A stretch of DNA of 16,988 bases. Origin: Nanoarchaeota archaeon (GTDB lineage: Archaea > EX4484-52 > LFW-46). The notes under the pieces are model-generated. The model was not told the DNA's origin. It was given only the letters and a program-made list of their open reading frames with translations, and did no database searches. Where the stretch lies: positions 1-16,988 of the forward strand of contig JAHILE010000041.1 in NCBI GenBank assembly GCA_018897155.1, written 5' to 3'. A program made the position numbers and the translations under genes. Below, piece after piece: positions 3,664 to 16,822 of the stretch (positions within the stretch are counted from its first letter, which is position 1; each line of letters opens with the position of its first letter).

Positions 3664-5934
3664 ATGAAATGGCTTGCAATCGGCTTTTTAATCTTCATCT
3701 CTTCTGTCATGGCGTTCGCAATTCCAGACACCGCATCTTCTATATGGTTTGAAGGAAACACATCACAGCATTATGCTCCAAGCTGCTTTAATGTAAACTG
3801 GAGCGCAGTTTCAAATGAAGATATATCGAATTACACGGTGTTTGTAGTAAATTCCCTGAACGGCAAAACAATACTAAAATCGACAAACACAAGCGCTACA
3901 GGATTTATTTTTTCAGGGGCTAATGGAATGAAATATCAATTTAAAATCGCCGCGATTAACACCACCGGAAAGCAAGGCCCAAATGCTACGTCCGATTGGA
4001 TGTTCGTAGATGCTCTTGCTCCGAAAGTATATTTTTACTCCACGTCCCCTGCAAACGGCGCATATATGAAAATAAAAAAAATATGGATAACTATCAACGT
4101 AAGCGGCTCAAACAGCAACACACTCATAAATGAAGGCTCTGAATCTTCGATAATTGCGGGCTCAATAGCCCATAAAGTTAAAGTTGATATGGTTTCCGAT
4201 GCATCTACGGCATACATAACTATGGATAGCGGCACTTCAGAAAGAGTAATTGCCGGAAACAGGTATATTATTAACGGAATGTTGGTATATATAAACAGCA
4301 TTTCATATGGAAGCGGAACGAACAAAGTCGGAATAAGCATTGCAGAATCAGGGCTGAATCTCATACTTAATTGGAATGGCGCAAACGAAACCAACACATT
4401 CACATATTACGGAACATACTGGGATGTTTCAAAAATTCTGATGGATGAGCGGCTGTATACCTATTATGTATGGGCGAATGATTCTGTCGGAAACATAAAT
4501 ATCAGCGAAAAAAGAACCATAAGATATAATCCAAGCTATCAACAAATATCCCTTTTATCGCCAGCAAATAAAACATATGACGCGCTTCAAATACCCCTAG
4601 AGTATGGTTATTTCGACACAGGCACATATTTGTGCTGGTATGAGTACAACAAAAAGAATGTAACGCTTACAAACTGCGGAAATTCGAATTTTTCGGCAAT
4701 ACGAAATGCTGCGTCAAAATTAACGCTCTGGATAAGAACCTCTTCAGGCAATTTAATATCTCAAAGCACAACATTCACCACGGCAATTCCTCCGGCAATT
4801 TTCTCGCACACGCCCGAAAATAATTCAATGCTGACACCCCCGTCTCTTAGCGGAAACAATGTTCTGCATATCGGCGTAAGAACCGACATAATTTCACAAT
4901 GCGGCTTTTCCACAGAAAAAGGCACTGATTTTGATTCGATGGATTTGTTCAAAACCACAAATTCAACCATACATAACACAACGATGAACATAACTGATTC
5001 AAGAGAATACAGGATATTTGTGCGCTGTAAAGACATGTTAGGAAATGCAAATTTAGAGGATTATTATCTCAAATACACGACATTGAATGGATCAAACAAG
5101 CTTTTGATAGATCCTGAAGAAAAAATAGCTAAAAATGGATACTTCCGTGTGGAAGTTTTAAGTGATAGAACAAAAACGTTCAACGTCCCGATAAAAAACA
5201 TTGCATCATCGACAATAGTAAAACCCGAAATAATACTAACTGGAACCGGAGCAGATTACATGATTGCAAAGCTTCGCTCAGACACTATTCCTGCAGGTTC
5301 TGAAGGCACGCTTGAAGTTACAATAACTCCAAATGACCTCGGCATATTTGATTCCAAAATAAACATAACAAAAGGCGAATCAAGTGCTGTATTGACTATT
5401 TCAATAACCGTCTATAAGGTATTCAGTAATGACCTAAACGACTTGAAAGAAAAAAGAATTGCACTTGCTGCGCGCCTTGATGCATTGAAGAAAAAGAACG
5501 CTGATGTTGACGATTTAATATCAAGTACAGAAACATTGCTATCTGATGTGAATGACGGCATATCTTTGTACAACAACGGAAAGTATAGCACTGCAAAAGA
5601 AAAAGTAGACACTTTAAGAACAGAGCTTGAAAACATCGAAGAAAAAACCATTGAAATGGAAGAAAACCAAAAATCCAAAGATTTATCAAATGATGACTTC
5701 TTACAAACAATAGAAAACAGTTCAAGTAAAATTAAAAAAGCGCAAAACATAAACATGCAAAACGAAAGCATCAATGGTGCCGACGACCCGGGCAATATAT
5801 GGATTGCGATCGGAGTAATTTTTTTAGCAATTATTATCATCATAGTTGCGACATCCATACTGCCTAATGATTATGGGAAGAAAAATGATGCTGAAGAAGA
5901 TGACGATCAAGAGCTATACCTCAAAGATAAATAA
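3664..5934 (+). CDS. Fn3/Ig-like surface protein with C-terminal membrane anchor, 756 aa
   Basis: The product has a signal peptide (residues 1-19, cut near FAIPD) and a fibronectin-type-III-like domain (about 27-116). A second Ig-like domain is interrupted by an extra block (about 155-230), and further beta-rich domains follow to about 580. A helical, probably coiled-coil segment covers 590-670. A single membrane helix (about 711-733) is followed by a short, very acidic cytoplasmic tail. Many NxS/T sequons suggest N-glycosylation. Cys 324, 338, 413 and 455 match four cysteines of the paralog at 9576-11570 with nearly identical spacing, suggesting two disulfides. It is probably an S-layer-associated or adhesion protein displayed outside the membrane. 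No enzymatic motif is seen. Confidence 0.85.
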   Translation: MKWLAIGFLIFISSVMAFAIPDTASSIWFEGNTSQHYAPSCFNVNWSAVSNEDISNYTVFVVNSLNGKTILKSTNTSATGFIFSGANGMKYQFKIAAINTTGKQGPNATSDWMFVDALAPKVYFYSTSPANGAYMKIKKIWITINVSGSNSNTLINEGSESSIIAGSIAHKVKVDMVSDASTAYITMDSGTSERVIAGNRYIINGMLVYINSISYGSGTNKVGISIAESGLNLILNWNGANETNTFTYYGTYWDVSKILMDERLYTYYVWANDSVGNINISEKRTIRYNPSYQQISLLSPANKTYDALQIPLEYGYFDTGTYLCWYEYNKKNVTLTNCGNSNFSAIRNAASKLTLWIRTSSGNLISQSTTFTTAIPPAIFSHTPENNSMLTPPSLSGNNVLHIGVRTDIISQCGFSTEKGTDFDSMDLFKTTNSTIHNTTMNITDSREYRIFVRCKDMLGNANLEDYYLKYTTLNGSNKLLIDPEEKIAKNGYFRVEVLSDRTKTFNVPIKNIASSTIVKPEIILTGTGADYMIAKLRSDTIPAGSEGTLEVTITPNDLGIFDSKINITKGESSAVLTISITVYKVFSNDLNDLKEKRIALAARLDALKKKNADVDDLISSTETLLSDVNDGISLYNNGKYSTAKEKVDTLRTELENIEEKTIEMEENQKSKDLSNDDFLQTIENSSSKIKKAQNINMQNESINGADDPGNIWIAIGVIFLAIIIIIVATSILPNDYGKKNDAEEDDDQELYLKDK

Positions 5935-8078: not shown

Positions 8079-8549
8079 ATGAAAAATAAGGGCGCTGCTG
8101 CAATAATTGCAACGATTTTGTTGGTGATGATGGCAATTACGGCAGCAGGCATGGCATACACTTGGACTATGAATATGCAAAGAGAGATACAAAAAAGCAC
8201 AGAAGATAAATATGCCAGTGATGCTGCAAAAGCAGATGCGAAAATGACAATCCCATCAATGTGGAACAATGCGGGAATGATTGACTTCATATTACAAAAC
8301 ACGGGAACATACACATTCGAGTTAACAAAATTTACAATATATTCAGACGGCATGCCGGTAACCGGTGCAATAACATACAGCATTGGCGCCATACTTAAAC
8401 CAGGCGATATAACTACCGTAAGCTTGACAACAATAACATTTCCAATATATCCGGCAACACCATCACGGACCATAAAAGTCGTTGCTGATACAGGCACAAG
8501 CTATACATACCGATGCGAAATAACATCGGCCTCACAATCATACTGCTAA
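8079..8549 (+). CDS. Archaeal type IV pilin-like protein, 156 aa
   Basis: The N-terminus MKNKG is followed by a hydrophobic helix AAAIIATILLVMMAITAAG, the class III signal of archaeal pilins and archaellins; a PibD/FlaK-type prepilin peptidase should cut after the glycine. The rest is a beta-rich head (about 45-156) with the short 'LQNTGTYTFEL' stretch often seen after the helix in these proteins. Two cysteines close the C-terminus (YRC...SYC, nine residues between), probably a disulfide. GGTGA sits four bases before the ATG. The product is expected to polymerise into surface filaments with its neighbour. No assembly ATPase or platform protein is present in the window. Confidence 0.88.
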   Translation: MKNKGAAAIIATILLVMMAITAAGMAYTWTMNMQREIQKSTEDKYASDAAKADAKMTIPSMWNNAGMIDFILQNTGTYTFELTKFTIYSDGMPVTGAITYSIGAILKPGDITTVSLTTITFPIYPATPSRTIKVVADTGTSYTYRCEITSASQSYC

Positions 8550-8590
8550 TAAAATTTCAAGCAGACATACTAAAAAATTAGGTGGATAAA

Positions 8591-9097
8591 ATGACAGTAA
8601 ATACAGCTAAAAAAGGAATAACAGCGGTGGTTGCCATAGTCTTGCTGCTCATGATGACAGTTGCAGCAGCGGGATTAGCTTATATGTGGATAAGCCAGAT
8701 GCAGACGGGTGCCCAAGCACAAGGAACTGAACAGCTTGGAAAAATTACGCAAACCACTCAGACAGCATATTCAATAGAGACAGTAAATTACCAATCAGCA
8801 ACATCTATGTCATATATTATAAGAAATACAGGTACTCTGCCTATTGACTTAATCACGGCCACAAACAGAGTAGTTTATCTGAATGGTAGAGTTATAACCC
8901 CAACAGTAACTCTTGCCCCTAACGCAGTACTTCAACCAAAGAACGTAGCAACAGTAACAATAACCGGTTTAGCCGCAGGTACGATGGCTGTTGGTTCAAC
9001 AAATACTATAAAAATAGTGAATGACAATGGTGCTAATGTTCAAGCTACATGCACCACAGTTGTCGCAACCGCAGGCAGCGCATGCCAAGGATATTAA
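8591..9097 (+). CDS. Archaeal type IV pilin-like protein, 168 aa
   Basis: The start at 8591 is chosen because AGGTGG lies at proper distance before it; a GTG at 8582 overlaps that site. The signal is MTVNTAKKG, then the helix ITAVVAIVLLLMMTVAAAG, with prepilin peptidase cleavage expected after KKG. The head is Thr/Ala/Val-rich and includes 'IIRNTGTLPIDL', aligned with the equivalent stretch of the first pilin. It likewise ends with two cysteines (ATC...SAC, ten residues between). The proteins are clearly distant paralogs in tandem, probably major and minor pilins. A predicted terminator hairpin follows. Confidence 0.88.
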   Translation: MTVNTAKKGITAVVAIVLLLMMTVAAAGLAYMWISQMQTGAQAQGTEQLGKITQTTQTAYSIETVNYQSATSMSYIIRNTGTLPIDLITATNRVVYLNGRVITPTVTLAPNAVLQPKNVATVTITGLAAGTMAVGSTNTIKIVNDNGANVQATCTTVVATAGSACQGY

Positions 9098-9575: not shown

Positions 9576-11570
9576 TTAAACGCCTGGATTGTCGGGAGTA
9601 GTTGGCGGCGCATCAGCCAAAGCATCCTTATCATCATTATCAGGCATATAAGACGTTGCAATGATTATCACTACAATAACAAGAATTATTACAATGACGA
9701 TAACACTGAGGCTTATACCGCCGCCCGAATCAGAATCGCCTTTATCAGAGTCACTTATGCTGCCAAGCAAGGAATTAGATTCATCAGCTTTTCGTTGAGC
9801 ACTCATAATGTCTGCATTCAAAAGATTAAAAGAGTCATTTAATTGCAAGAATTTTTCACGGGCTTCAGCCGGGTTTTCAGAAGAATATATCGAATAAATA
9901 TCGGATATATCTGATTTCATGCGCTCCAATTCGACATTATACTTAGTCACATCAACTCCTTTTAGACTTAAATTTTGAATCTGCGATGATATGTTGGGTA
10001 TAGCTAAATCAACTGCATCAAACTCCGGATAGAAATCATAATATGTCGTTACCTCCACCAAAAAAGTAGAAGAATATGTACTAAGGCTCAAAGTGATATT
10101 TGTTTTTAACACGCCAGAAACGCTCGGAAATGCATATATTGTAAGATAAGACGCTTCAGAATTCGATATCATCACAGGCGCTTTCGCCTGAATACTCATC
10201 GCAACATCATCTGGAACTTTCGCAGTAACTCCATATACATTATAAAGTGCTCTTGTTTTAAGAGGTACTTTAACAACTGTCGGCTTGTCCTTTATTGTTT
10301 TTATATGGAGTACATTATTCTTTAAAACGGTACTATTAGGATCTATGATTACCAAACCGTTGGAATCAGCAGTAGAAAACTGCAACAAATAGTCGTCCGT
10401 ATTGATAGCATTATCGAGGCTTTTACATCGAATATAAAACAAGTACGTGGTTTTATCAGAAAGCGAAACTGTTGTATTATGCGTATTATTTTCTGCAGCG
10501 ATAAAATAATTAGCCATAGACTCAAAACTTGTATTCGGAGTTGTTGAATATCTACAATTTGCTTGTTTATCTGTTTTTATGCTTATCACATCATTAAATT
10601 TTCCGCTTAGCAATGGCGCAACCAGCATTTTATTATTTTCAGGCACTGTTGAGATAATTTTTGGCGCTGAAGGAGTATTGGCTGTAAAAACAGCAGATGC
10701 TGAATTCATATTGCCTGCTGCATCACTCACCCAGATCGTAATTGTTGTTTTATTATTGTATATTGGAAGAAATGTGATATTCTCGCAACCAAATATTGTA
10801 GTGTTTATGGAGTTGTACTCATACGAACATGTAATGGGAGCTGCATCGCTGGCAACATAGTCCAACGATATTGATACCGAATCATAAACAGCATCTTGTA
10901 CAGGCGAAATAATGGATAGTGACGGTTTGGTAATATCGTAGATTATGGAACGAACATCACCTTTGATGAAGTTTGTCGCAGAATTATTTGCCCAAACATA
11001 ATAAGTATATTTTCCAGGCGTGGGCATTTCAAAAGTATACATCCAAAGTATTCCTGAAGCATGGCGGTATATATTATCGGCGCCATTCCAATTGATTATC
11101 GTCGTATCAATATAGCTATCCAAAACATTACCACTTATTGTGGTCCAGTTTTCTTTTGTATATGCATTATTTTCCGGCGTTGGCGGTGCATAGTTAATCA
11201 GCGGGCGTGAGGTGTGTACGAAAACCCAATCAGATATTGTTCCAAGACCTTCTTCATTGATTGTATTTACCGCAGTAACCTTGAAAGTATAATTTCCGCC
11301 AGAAGATCCTGAAAAGAGAAATGTTGTTGGCGTCGTGTTCGAACCAACAAGAATTGGGTTTCCGCCTGAAGCATAATTCAAATAAATATTGTAGCGCAAA
11401 ATCTCTTCATTTGTAACCGGATCCCAGTTCACGGTGAAAACGCCATTATTGTCAAAAGGCGGATTTTCATTTCCTGTGAACCAAACCAATGGAGGTGCAT
11501 CTGGAAGGGCGGATACAAAAGGAACAACAAGCAATAAAGAAAACAAGGCAATGAAAAAAAGCTTTCTCAT
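9576..11570 (-). CDS. Fn3/Ig-like surface protein with C-terminal membrane anchor, 664 aa
   Basis: This is a paralog of the 756-aa protein. The signal peptide covers residues 1-21 (ending PFVSA), a fibronectin-type-III-like domain about 27-117, and further beta-sandwich domains lie to about 515. A helical segment covers 525-600, a Gly/Ser/Asp linker follows, the membrane helix is at about 620-640 and the tail is acidic and Pro-rich. Shared landmarks include FLFSG/FIFSG, SDWVFV/SDWMFV and INWNGA/LNWNGA. Cys 248, 262, 339 and 382 match the paralog in spacing. It lacks the roughly 76-residue block inserted in the second domain of the paralog. NxS/T sequons are frequent. Likely role: surface-layer or adhesion protein. 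Confidence 0.85.
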   Translation of the reverse strand: MRKLFFIALFSLLLVVPFVSALPDAPPLVWFTGNENPPFDNNGVFTVNWDPVTNEEILRYNIYLNYASGGNPILVGSNTTPTTFLFSGSSGGNYTFKVTAVNTINEEGLGTISDWVFVHTSRPLINYAPPTPENNAYTKENWTTISGNVLDSYIDTTIINWNGADNIYRHASGILWMYTFEMPTPGKYTYYVWANNSATNFIKGDVRSIIYDITKPSLSIISPVQDAVYDSVSISLDYVASDAAPITCSYEYNSINTTIFGCENITFLPIYNNKTTITIWVSDAAGNMNSASAVFTANTPSAPKIISTVPENNKMLVAPLLSGKFNDVISIKTDKQANCRYSTTPNTSFESMANYFIAAENNTHNTTVSLSDKTTYLFYIRCKSLDNAINTDDYLLQFSTADSNGLVIIDPNSTVLKNNVLHIKTIKDKPTVVKVPLKTRALYNVYGVTAKVPDDVAMSIQAKAPVMISNSEASYLTIYAFPSVSGVLKTNITLSLSTYSSTFLVEVTTYYDFYPEFDAVDLAIPNISSQIQNLSLKGVDVTKYNVELERMKSDISDIYSIYSSENPAEAREKFLQLNDSFNLLNADIMSAQRKADESNSLLGSISDSDKGDSDSGGGISLSVIVIVIILVIVVIIIATSYMPDNDDKDALADAPPTTPDNPGV

Positions 11571-13648: not shown

Positions 13649-14197
13649 TCAATAGTCTGAAAGAACTTTAAGCAAATCAGCTTTTGTTATAAGCCCTTTG
13701 AGCAATCCTCCTTTTTTTATCAACACAAGCGGATAAGACTTAAGAAGGTATGCAACGACCGAAATTTTAGCGCTTTCGGAAAGTATCGGCGGCGGCTCAA
13801 TCATCAAATCCCACGCGCTAAGATGCTCCATATCACTTAAATCCTTATTGAGTATGCTGCTTTCAGTTATGATTCCAAGCACATTGTCGCCTTCAAGAAC
13901 CGGCACCTGCGAAATGGTGTGCTTGTTCATAAGTTCTATTACTTTACGCGCAGCCATGCGCTTGTCAACAGAAATTATCTTCCGAACCATTATTTCTTTG
14001 GCATCAAGTTCCTTTTCTTTTTCAAAAGAGCTTACAAACGCCTCGATTTTCTGAACGCTGGACCAGCTTGGATCCATTCTGCCGGCCTCTATTTTTGCTA
14101 TCATGCTTTGAGAGACTCCGGATTTATTCGCAAACTGCTTTTGTGTAAGACCGATGCGCTTTCGTATCTCGCCTATTTTTGTTATATCAAAGACCAT
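13649..14197 (-). CDS. HTH (XRE-type) plus tandem CBS transcriptional regulator
   Basis: The ATG at 14197 is taken as the start because a TATA box (14218-14227) lies 26 bases before it; an upstream in-frame start would lie beside that box. The 182-aa product has an XRE-type helix-turn-helix (about residues 5-60; TQKQFANKSGVSQSMIAKIE is the core), a short linker, then two CBS motifs (about 66-180), each with the typical 'vpVle.dnvlGiITes.il' ending. This is the COG3620 layout found in archaea. CBS pairs bind adenosyl ligands such as AMP, ATP or SAM. The gene is divergent from metK, and palindromes lie at its own promoter, suggesting autoregulation and possibly control of metK. Confidence 0.9.
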   Translation of the reverse strand: MVFDITKIGEIRKRIGLTQKQFANKSGVSQSMIAKIEAGRMDPSWSSVQKIEAFVSSFEKEKELDAKEIMVRKIISVDKRMAARKVIELMNKHTISQVPVLEGDNVLGIITESSILNKDLSDMEHLSAWDLMIEPPPILSESAKISVVAYLLKSYPLVLIKKGGLLKGLITKADLLKVLSDY

Positions 14198-14212
14198 CAG
14201 ATAAATTATCTG
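14198..14212. promoter_or_regulatory. Palindrome between TATA box and start of the HTH-CBS gene
   Basis: CAGATAAATTATCTG is a perfect 15-base palindrome (7-bp arms around one A) that abuts the start codon of the regulator gene. Binding here would block its transcription, as expected for an autorepressor operator. Confidence 0.5.
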
Positions 14213-14222
14213 CAAAAGCATA

Positions 14223-14290: not shown

Positions 14291-16822
14291 ATGCCAGAAA
14301 ATAAAACAGGAAATTCTCAAAAAACTAAGCAGCTGTTTACTTCAGAATCAGTAACTGAAGGTCATCCGGACAAAATTGCAGATAAAGTGTCTGACGCAAT
14401 TCTTGATGCGATTCTTGAAAAAGATCCAAACGGGCGTGTCGCCTGCGAAACCCTGACTTCAACAGGGCTCGTTGTTGTGGCTGGCGAAGTCACTACAAAC
14501 TGCTATGTCGATATACAGAAAGTCATACGGGAAACGCTTAAAGAAATAGGGTACACCAATCCCGAATACGGCCTTGATTACCAGGACTGCGCGGTTCTGA
14601 CGGCAATACATGAGCAGAGCCAGAATATTGCGGTCGGCGTCGATTCGAGCCAAAGCCATGAACAGGGCGCTGGCGACCAGGGATTAATGTTCGGGTTTGC
14701 ATGCAACGAAACACCGGAATTGATGCCGCTTCCAATATCGCTTGCCCACGGGCTTACAAGGCGCCTTGCGGAAGTGAGGAAAAAAAGCATACTCACTTGG
14801 GTCCGGCCTGACGGAAAATCGCAGGTCACCGTAGAATATGAAAACGGAAAGCCAAAAAGGGTGGATACAGTAGTTATCGCAGTGCACCACGACCCGAAAG
14901 TCGCGCAGGACGAGCTAAAGCGCGAGATCATAGAAAAAGTGATAAAGCCGGTCTGCGAAAAATACCTGGATGAAAAGACAAAATATTTCATAAATGCAAC
15001 AGGAATCTTCGTTGTCGGCGGGCCTGAAGCGGATACCGGAGTCACGGGGAGAAAAATAATTGTTGACACTTACGGCGGAATGGGAAGGCATGGAGGAGGC
15101 GCATTTTGTGTTGCCGGAGACGCTATGGTAAACACACAAGATGGACTTGCTCCGATTGCAGACCTTAAGAGCATTAATGGCAAGCTCGTTAAAACAGATA
15201 TTTCTCCCACACCTGCGGATGCTTGGTATTATAACGGAGAATTACCAACATTAAAAATCCGTACTGCCGACGGTTACGAATTTGAAGGAACATACAACCA
15301 GTGCATAAGAGTGGTAAATGATAGCGGAAGCTATATATGGAGAAGATTAGACGAATTAAAGCCAACCGATTATATAGCAATCCAGCGCAAGAACCGTTTA
15401 TTTGGAACTAAATATAATGCCGGCGATTTCCATTTTGAACATAAGCCCGGTACATATCGAAAAAACAGTTTTTCTTTCCCAAAAGAGCTTACAGAAGATT
15501 ACGCATATCTTCTCGGCCTTTTGGTCGGGGATGGCAATTGTAATTTCAAAGATGGCATCTCTATCTGCGTGTGTGAAGAAGAAATGAAAAGCAATGTCCA
15601 AAATCTCTACTCGCGGCTCTTTGGAAAACAAGGGAAGATATTCGGCCATTGGGCATTCTTTGGAGGGCTTGAACTTCGCGCTTATTTAGAGCATTTAGGG
15701 TTGTTGGGAAAATGCCGCTCATGGGAAAAGCGCGTTCCAAAAGCCGTTTTTAGTACTCCGAAAAATGTTGCTGCAGCATTCTTACGGGGACTATTTGATA
15801 CCGACGGAACAATACGCAGAACCGGCAGATATTTGAATTCGCCGGATATCAAATTAACATCAACTTCGCACGGATTAATTAATGATGTGCAAATCTTGCT
15901 ATTGAATTTTGGCATAATAACCCGCATCCAAACAGTTGATACAATAGGCAAGAGCGCGTTTATCAAAGGACGAAAAATTACGTCTAAGCGGCTTCTTTAT
16001 CACCTCAGAATCAAAGGCGCTGAAAGTGCCCGCGTCTTTAGACAGGAAATTGGTTTTGGATTATCCCGTAAAGCCAAAATACTTAATGGCATTGATTTAG
16101 AAAGGAAGCGCGACAACACTCTTGTTCCGGCGCAGCGAGAACGCATTAAGCGCCTATGGAACCGCCTTCCATCTGCTGTAAAACAGCGCGATGCTTCCAA
16201 TATAGGCCGGCTTGCACGTAGCCCTACAGGAAAAGCAACTAAAGAGCTAACATACGAAAAACTGCGGGAATTTTTGGATACGTACGCCAATTATTTCGAA
16301 GGAGAACTAGATTTCGAATACCTTAGGACACTTTACATCATGAATGGTTATTATACTCGCGCAGTCAGTATCCAACAATCAAAAACAAAAGTCTACGACC
16401 TTACGGTGCCCGGAGCCCACACATTCACTGCCAACGGCTTTATTTGCCATAATTCCGGTAAAGACCCGTCAAAAGTCGACAGGTCCGGGGCATACATGGC
16501 GCGCTACGTAGCAAAAAACATAGTCGCGGCAGGGCTTGCGGATAAATGCGAAGTTCAGCTTGCTTACTCAATAGGCGTTGCAGAGCCTGTTTCGGTTCTT
16601 GTGGATACGTTTAGAACCGGCAAAATTGCAGAAGAAAAAATATCCGAGCTGGTGCGCAAGCATTTCAGCATGAAGCCTGCTGCAATAATCAGCCATCTGA
16701 ATCTGAAGCGCCCGATATACAAAAAAACAGCAGCATACGGCCATTTCGGAAGGAATGATCCTGATTTCACCTGGGAGAAGACGGATAAGGCAGATGCTTT
16801 GAGAAAGGATGCCGGGATTTAG
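14291..16822 (+). CDS. metK: S-adenosylmethionine synthetase, bacterial type, intein-containing precursor
   Basis: The 843-residue precursor comprises extein residues 1-272 and 722-843 (394 aa when joined, the normal bacterial MetK length) and a 449-residue intein. Landmarks are the HPDK motif (25-28, ATP/substrate binding), [10 protein letters not shown], the ATP-loop signature GGGAF/SGKD that the intein divides, [20 protein letters not shown], and the C-terminal TAAYGHFGR...WEKTDKA. The enzyme makes SAM from methionine and ATP in the cytoplasm. Archaea typically use a divergent archaeal-type SAM synthetase, so this copy looks acquired from bacteria. Activity should need splicing, since the insertion disrupts the nucleotide-binding signature. 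The frame is intact throughout. It is divergent from the HTH-CBS regulator. Confidence 0.95.
15107..16453 (+). mobile_element. Intein with LAGLIDADG homing endonuclease in metK
   Basis: The intein spans precursor residues 273-721 (449 aa). It starts with Cys ([13 protein letters not shown], block A) and ends in FICHN, followed by Ser as the +1 extein nucleophile. Block F/G reads [12 protein letters not shown] then FICHN, with penultimate His and terminal Asn. The homing endonuclease has both LAGLIDADG helices: LLGLLVGDG at 407-415 and [10 protein letters not shown] at 497-506, with the acidic residues present. The expected block B TxxH reads TYNQ (334-337), so the usual histidine is Gln 337. 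The element should splice itself out of MetK and copy itself into intein-free metK alleles. Confidence 0.93.

Follow-up and report, generated by a model that had tools for sequence, protein, structure and literature searches.

The DNA examined here, which we call the window, is a stretch of 16,988 nucleotides from a Nanoarchaeota archaeon (contig JAHILE010000041.1 of assembly GCA_018897155.1). Towards its end lies metK, the gene for a bacterial-type SAM synthetase (MetK), which is interrupted by an intein carrying a LAGLIDADG endonuclease (Table 1). Directly upstream, on the opposite strand, is a gene for an HTH-CBS regulator (13649-14221). Since SAM and adenosyl ligands are among the molecules that CBS domains can bind, our guess is that this protein may regulate metK. 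Elsewhere in the window, two pilin-like genes (8079-9097) stand between the genes for two large secreted or membrane proteins (3664-5934 and 9576-11570). These two proteins share an fn3-like start and a membrane anchor at the C-terminus, and they look like paralogous surface proteins.

Table 1. The interrupted metK gene and the parts of its intein (positions in the window).
Feature	Position	Strand	Remarks
metK frame	14291-16822	+	843 aa with no internal stop; bacterial-type MetK split in frame by the intein
N-extein	14291-15106	+	MetK residues 1-272, ending HGGGAF; -1 residue Phe, codon 15104-15106
Intein	15107-16453	+	449 residues with nested LAGLIDADG endonuclease (Pfam/NCBIfam matches, AlphaFold2 model); Cys1 codon 15107-15109, terminal His-Asn ends at 16453
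N-terminal splicing block	15107-15145	+	Cys1 nucleophile, invariant in eight alleles
Block B	15272-15313	+	Thr B:7 present; His B:10 replaced by Gln65, codon CAG 15299-15301
First LAGLIDADG motif	15506-15535	+	catalytic Asp142, invariant in eight alleles
Pfam LAGLIDADG_3 region	15767-16054	+	second motif (Asp233) at 15779-15808
Block F and C-terminal splicing block	16394-16453	+	F Asp431, F His438 (block F numbering is our own assignment), penultimate His448, terminal Asn449
C-extein	16454-16822	+	rest of MetK to the stop; +1 Ser (from 16454) is the second nucleophile

The host frame matches the MetK family TIGR01034 in two stretches (E 1e-171, 571 bits against a cut-off of 309), and Pfam S-AdoMet_synt_N, S-AdoMet_synt_M and S-AdoMet_synt_C all score over their cut-offs. 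The insert lies between residues 272 and 722 of the frame and splits GGGAF/SGKD (a slash marks an insertion point throughout), with GCATTT/TCCGGT as its DNA flanks. When the exteins are aligned to E. coli-type MetK structures, they join without gap or overlap, and the active-site segment is intact once the intein is removed (alignment to 7r2w). The first-pass reading of an insertion in a conserved active-site segment of MetK is supported; the split comes just before the loop of the active site that holds Lys265, Lys269 and Asp271 (E. coli MetK numbering).

Within the insert are matches to Pfam Intein_splicing (46-48 bits, cut-off 35.8), Pfam LAGLIDADG_3 (71-73 bits, cut-off 22.5) and NCBIfam intein_Cterm (TIGR01443), the C-terminal splicing motif. 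It has a Hint splicing fold, Cys1, a block G His-Asn and Ser+1, it stands in frame, its removal restores an intact host protein, and relatives have the empty site. The class 1 residues C1, T62 (B:7; Ser in allele L144) and D431 (F:4) are present, as are two endonuclease motifs whose catalytic residues, Asp142 and Asp233, are invariant in eight alleles. By its anatomy and exact boundaries, the insert is an intein beyond reasonable doubt. The first-pass annotation had proposed a LAGLIDADG intein at 15107-16453, between GGGAF and SGKD, and the family matches, the empty site and seven more genomes confirm these coordinates exactly. The uninterrupted open frame and the decisive protein signatures speak against a group I intron or other RNA element.

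An AlphaFold2 model of the intein, made from eleven sequences, has a pLDDT of 88.1 and a pTM of 0.90. The closest solved structures are complete endonuclease-bearing inteins, those of TliVMA (7qsu and 7qss), with VIA Z-scores of 29.7 and 28.6 and rmsd values of 4.3 over 390 and 3.4 over 323 residues. Further intein matches are PI-PkoII (2cw7, Z 26.9), PI-PfuI (1dq3, Z 24.4) and the G-1F/H73A mutant of Ssp DnaB M86 (6fre, VIA Z 19.8, rmsd 1.9 over 139 residues), and the model also matches the endonucleases I-DmoI and I-Tsp061I.

A homologous insert occurs at the same MetK codon boundary in seven further archaeal genomes (alleles L003, L031, L112, L141, L143, L144 and L145), which excludes chance or an assembly artefact as its source. 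Allele L003, on a Woesearchaeota-labelled contig, is 48% identical to the window intein; the other six come from pattern and profile searches of about 1,600 genomes. A MetK intein is found in the window genome only among the 34 genomes of its phylum, and in 5 of 156 genomes of the phylum to which genome G629 belongs. In a profile search of 297 relatives, mostly archaea of other groups, G629 and the window were the only ones with an intein at this site. None of the open-access papers searched mentions a MetK intein, and as far as those papers go MetK appears to be an undescribed intein host site. An earlier suggestion that the site is new or little described holds to this extent, but the insertion is not a one-off, since at least eight archaea have been invaded.

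Searched with the intein profile, viral contigs yielded no relative. The motif HGGGAFC is present in 76 viral contigs; wherever one of these has a MetK match, there is no intein and Cys replaces Ser. L071, L090, L052 and about 25 other viral contigs encode an intein-free MetK with HGGGAFC, the Cys standing where the inteins have their +1 Ser. Phage and plasmid records gave only distant inteins (23-29% identical over their full length) in terminase, helicase or RecA-type genes.

In all eight intein-bearing genomes, the interrupted metK is the only SAM synthetase found, and its frame is open with no internal stop. Neither a second MetK nor an archaeal-type MAT (PF01941) was found in any of the eight, all of which are drafts (75 to 96% complete where completeness is stated), and a redundant SAM synthetase was likewise rejected for the window genome (G000). 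SAM is needed by every cell, and we therefore infer that the MetK inteins splice, a reading for which a sole SAM synthetase in eight draft genomes argues strongly.

Some further observations concern SAM synthetases and inteins in these and related genomes. Across the 61 genomes searched (G000-G060), bacterial MetK and archaeal-type MAT never occur together, and they exclude each other even within one order, a pattern suggesting that horizontal transfer has replaced one by the other. Two genomes (G023 and G017) carry a second, very divergent MetK-like gene beside a normal MetK (L024 and L025; E 2e-33, 28% identity). The window genome has a second intein, L002 (G000:C40:22473-23087, minus strand), in a 1012-aa frame that looks, as named from sequence, like the DNA polymerase II large subunit; it has TPDH at block B and runs from NCFFGNEKIIV to IVAGN/CDGDED. 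In G004, a genome of the same order, the only SAM synthetase sequence found is a C-terminal MetK fragment of 121 aa (L022, G004:C21:15533-15898), whose match contains one TAA.

The first-pass annotation overlooked what is most unusual about the window intein, namely that its block B histidine is missing. Block B usually closes with TxxH, whose His is B:10 and is regarded as nearly indispensable for splicing. Where the Mxe GyrA intein has T-A-N-H, the window intein has T-Y-N-Q, so His at position B:10 is replaced by Gln65. The same replacement is seen in L112 (TENQ), L143 (TKNQ) and L144 (SRNQ), and His is present in L003, L031, L141 and L145; we call these the Gln group and the His group. The four Gln alleles thus lack one residue of the canonical class 1 active site, and because its B:10 is Gln, we file the window intein as a variant rather than as canonical class 1. 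All other splicing residues and both endonuclease aspartates are intact in the Gln group. Sequencing error at the B:10 codon is ruled out and decay is unlikely, because four diverged inteins keep Gln (CAG or CAA in the three other genomes) and, between them, third codon positions differ about three times as often as second positions, as under purifying selection.

One paper (PMC4031507) describes this histidine as more conserved than any other intein residue and names just two inteins lacking it as of 2014: a pseudogene and Tko CDC21-1, which uses Lys58, outside the motifs, in its place. Of 35 block B positions in the other archaeal intein domains that we fetched, 28 have His at B:10. Among the seven that do not are four MCM inteins at SAAGL/C with Thr at B:10, fitting the description of the Tko CDC21-1 type. 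Because 7 of 35 positions are exceptions, loss of the block B His is, judging by these alignments, uncommon but recurrent among archaeal inteins. The remaining three exceptions are an intein at the MCM P-loop site (L130, GTYNQ), one in GyrA (L138, ATTSQ) and one in RNR (L120, ATYNE), and the loss may be commoner than the literature says.

The change was likely from His to Gln, because the relatives of these inteins at a site in MutS carry His, but a MutS-rooted tree also allows Gln to be ancestral and His to have been regained. With L113 and L115 as outgroups, the Gln group is a solid clade (100/99). Rooted with three MutS-site inteins, it forms one clade in 42% of bootstrap trees and is not rejected (p-AU 0.475). 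Since the MutS-rooted tree gives no firm clade, we write "group" rather than "clade".

An intein with Gln65 would have to start its N-S acyl shift differently. The simplest means would be steric strain exerted by the bulky Phe that MetK supplies at position -1, with the group-specific Lys50, Arg80 and Lys85 perhaps assisting. Friedel et al. found that a bulky -1 residue makes up for a missing block B His in Ssp DnaB: in cis, M86 H73A is inactive with its native Gly-1 but reaches up to about 50% splicing with Phe-1, and the authors proposed a bulky -1 residue as a route by which inteins in nature could have come to lack the His (PMC6333167). By analogy, Phe-1 may compensate for the lost His in the MetK inteins, a claim we find about equally easy to accept and to doubt. 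Phe-1 is fixed by MetK and common to both types of allele, and the His group having it too means that Phe-1 alone did not drive the loss. Moreover, Gln at B:10 may work without a bulky -1 residue, because L130 and L138 have Ser and Glu, respectively, before Cys1. We lean slightly against the fuller proposal that the MetK inteins are a second natural His-less lineage, in which the essential host residue Phe-1 gives the strain that replaces the catalytic His and the His-bearing sister alleles serve as built-in controls; an extein-assisted acyl shift known from engineered proteins would then operate in nature. Since inteins of both types sit at one and the same extein junction, they offer a clean test of what Friedel et al. 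proposed.

Compensation may instead come from the intein's own residues and not from Phe-1, the candidates being Lys50, Arg80 and Lys85, or Gln65 itself as a hydrogen-bond donor; we regard this as possible but doubtful. Lys50, Arg80, Asp82 and Lys85 are fixed in all four Gln-type inteins and absent from all four His-type ones, a Lys outside the motifs has its precedent in Tko CDC21-1 (PMC4031507), and the Gln of L130 and L138 recurs where there is no Phe-1. However, the two groups are unlike at many further positions, mostly in the endonuclease, which makes the association weak, and the Mxe GyrA intein, whose His is present, also has a Lys aligned with Lys85.

It is improbable that the Gln-type inteins are splicing-impaired relics and that the window organism gets its SAM or active MetK by another route, such as a partner cell or an undetected enzyme. 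Mutation of B:10 does inactivate many inteins, and one of the two His-less inteins known by 2014 was a pseudogene (PMC4031507). The hosts' genomes are also small and probably of DPANN type, a lineage that is often partner-dependent. Relics would be hard to reconcile, however, with a Gln kept among inteins only 60-68% identical whose other splicing residues and both endonuclease aspartates are intact, with the absence of stops, with exteins that are both still full MetK matches, or with the intact MetK that several intein-free relatives retain. If the Gln-type inteins do splice, then at least four inteins keep Gln inside a sole SAM synthetase, and evolution can drop the His even where splicing should be vital.

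The sequences of the inteins fall into the same two groups, with identities of 60-68% within the Gln group, 59-70% within the His group and 47-54% between them, a division that the host MetKs do not mirror. In a tree of 25 MetKs, a single clade of intein-bearing MetKs is rejected (p-AU 6e-12), as is a single clade of Gln-group hosts (p-AU 1e-6), and the window MetK is sister to those of the intein-free L012 and L013. The MetK of the closest intein-free relative is 79% identical, and the empty site in L012 reads GCCTTT/TCCGGG. In all eight alleles, the intein has a lower GC content than the extein, by 5 to 15 points. Because the host MetKs ignore the intein split and are no clade, horizontal spread by homing into one site fits better than inheritance. 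The disagreement of the intein and MetK trees fits homing, for which DNA cleavage is a prediction, and the eight alleles show that the element has moved horizontally from one archaeal family to another.

Close relatives without the intein, horizontal spread, a GC content below that of the host gene and intact endonuclease motifs together give what is, on sequence grounds, the distribution of a selfish homing element. No support was found for the first-pass proposal that splicing controls SAM-dependent methylation. The scattered occurrence of the intein and its absence from relatives suggest a parasite, tolerated by its host because it presumably splices. That the intein is kept as a conditional-splicing switch on SAM supply is very improbable: it does adjoin the active-site loop of an essential enzyme, and conditional splicing is reported for other inteins (e.g., mycobacterial DnaB), but no sensor is visible in the sequence, presence is patchy with close relatives managing without it, and the trees speak for horizontal spread rather than retention by descent.

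We consider it very probable that this is a horizontally spreading, class 1-type MetK intein at F/S which splices itself out, with the loss of B:10 offset in another way. The precursor would excise the intein by transfer from Cys1 to Ser+1 and then cyclisation of Asn449, leaving an unscarred, active MetK. The endonuclease would presumably cut intein-free metK at its highly conserved site, so that repair copies the intein in.

Like the class 1 LAGLIDADG inteins TliVMA, PI-PfuI, PI-PkoII and PI-SceI, the window intein has a Hint domain split by an endonuclease, Cys1, a His-Asn end and Ser+1; unlike them, it has MetK as its host and Gln instead of His at B:10. Like the Tko CDC21-1 type, it naturally lacks His at B:10 and has a bulky residue at -1, which is Phe in MetK and Leu in that type (PMC6333167, PMC4031507). 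That type differs in host (MCM/CDC21) and site and has Thr at B:10 where the MetK group has Gln. We compared it through inteins that match its description (SAAGL/C site) rather than through the Tko sequence itself, and these show no close sequence relation, scoring below 10 bits with the MetK intein profile; the window intein, with MetK as its host, is not a member. Ssp DnaB M86 G(-1)F/H73A, whose crystal structure (6fre) comes from Friedel et al., likewise combines Phe-1 with no block B His, but it is an engineered mini-intein with Ala at that position, whereas the MetK inteins are natural and have Gln. The closest profile relatives found outside MetK are the MutS Walker A-site inteins L113, L149 and L150 (E 2e-54 to 8e-66, full length), which differ in lying at GPNMAGK/S of MutS and in keeping the block B His (GTxNH).
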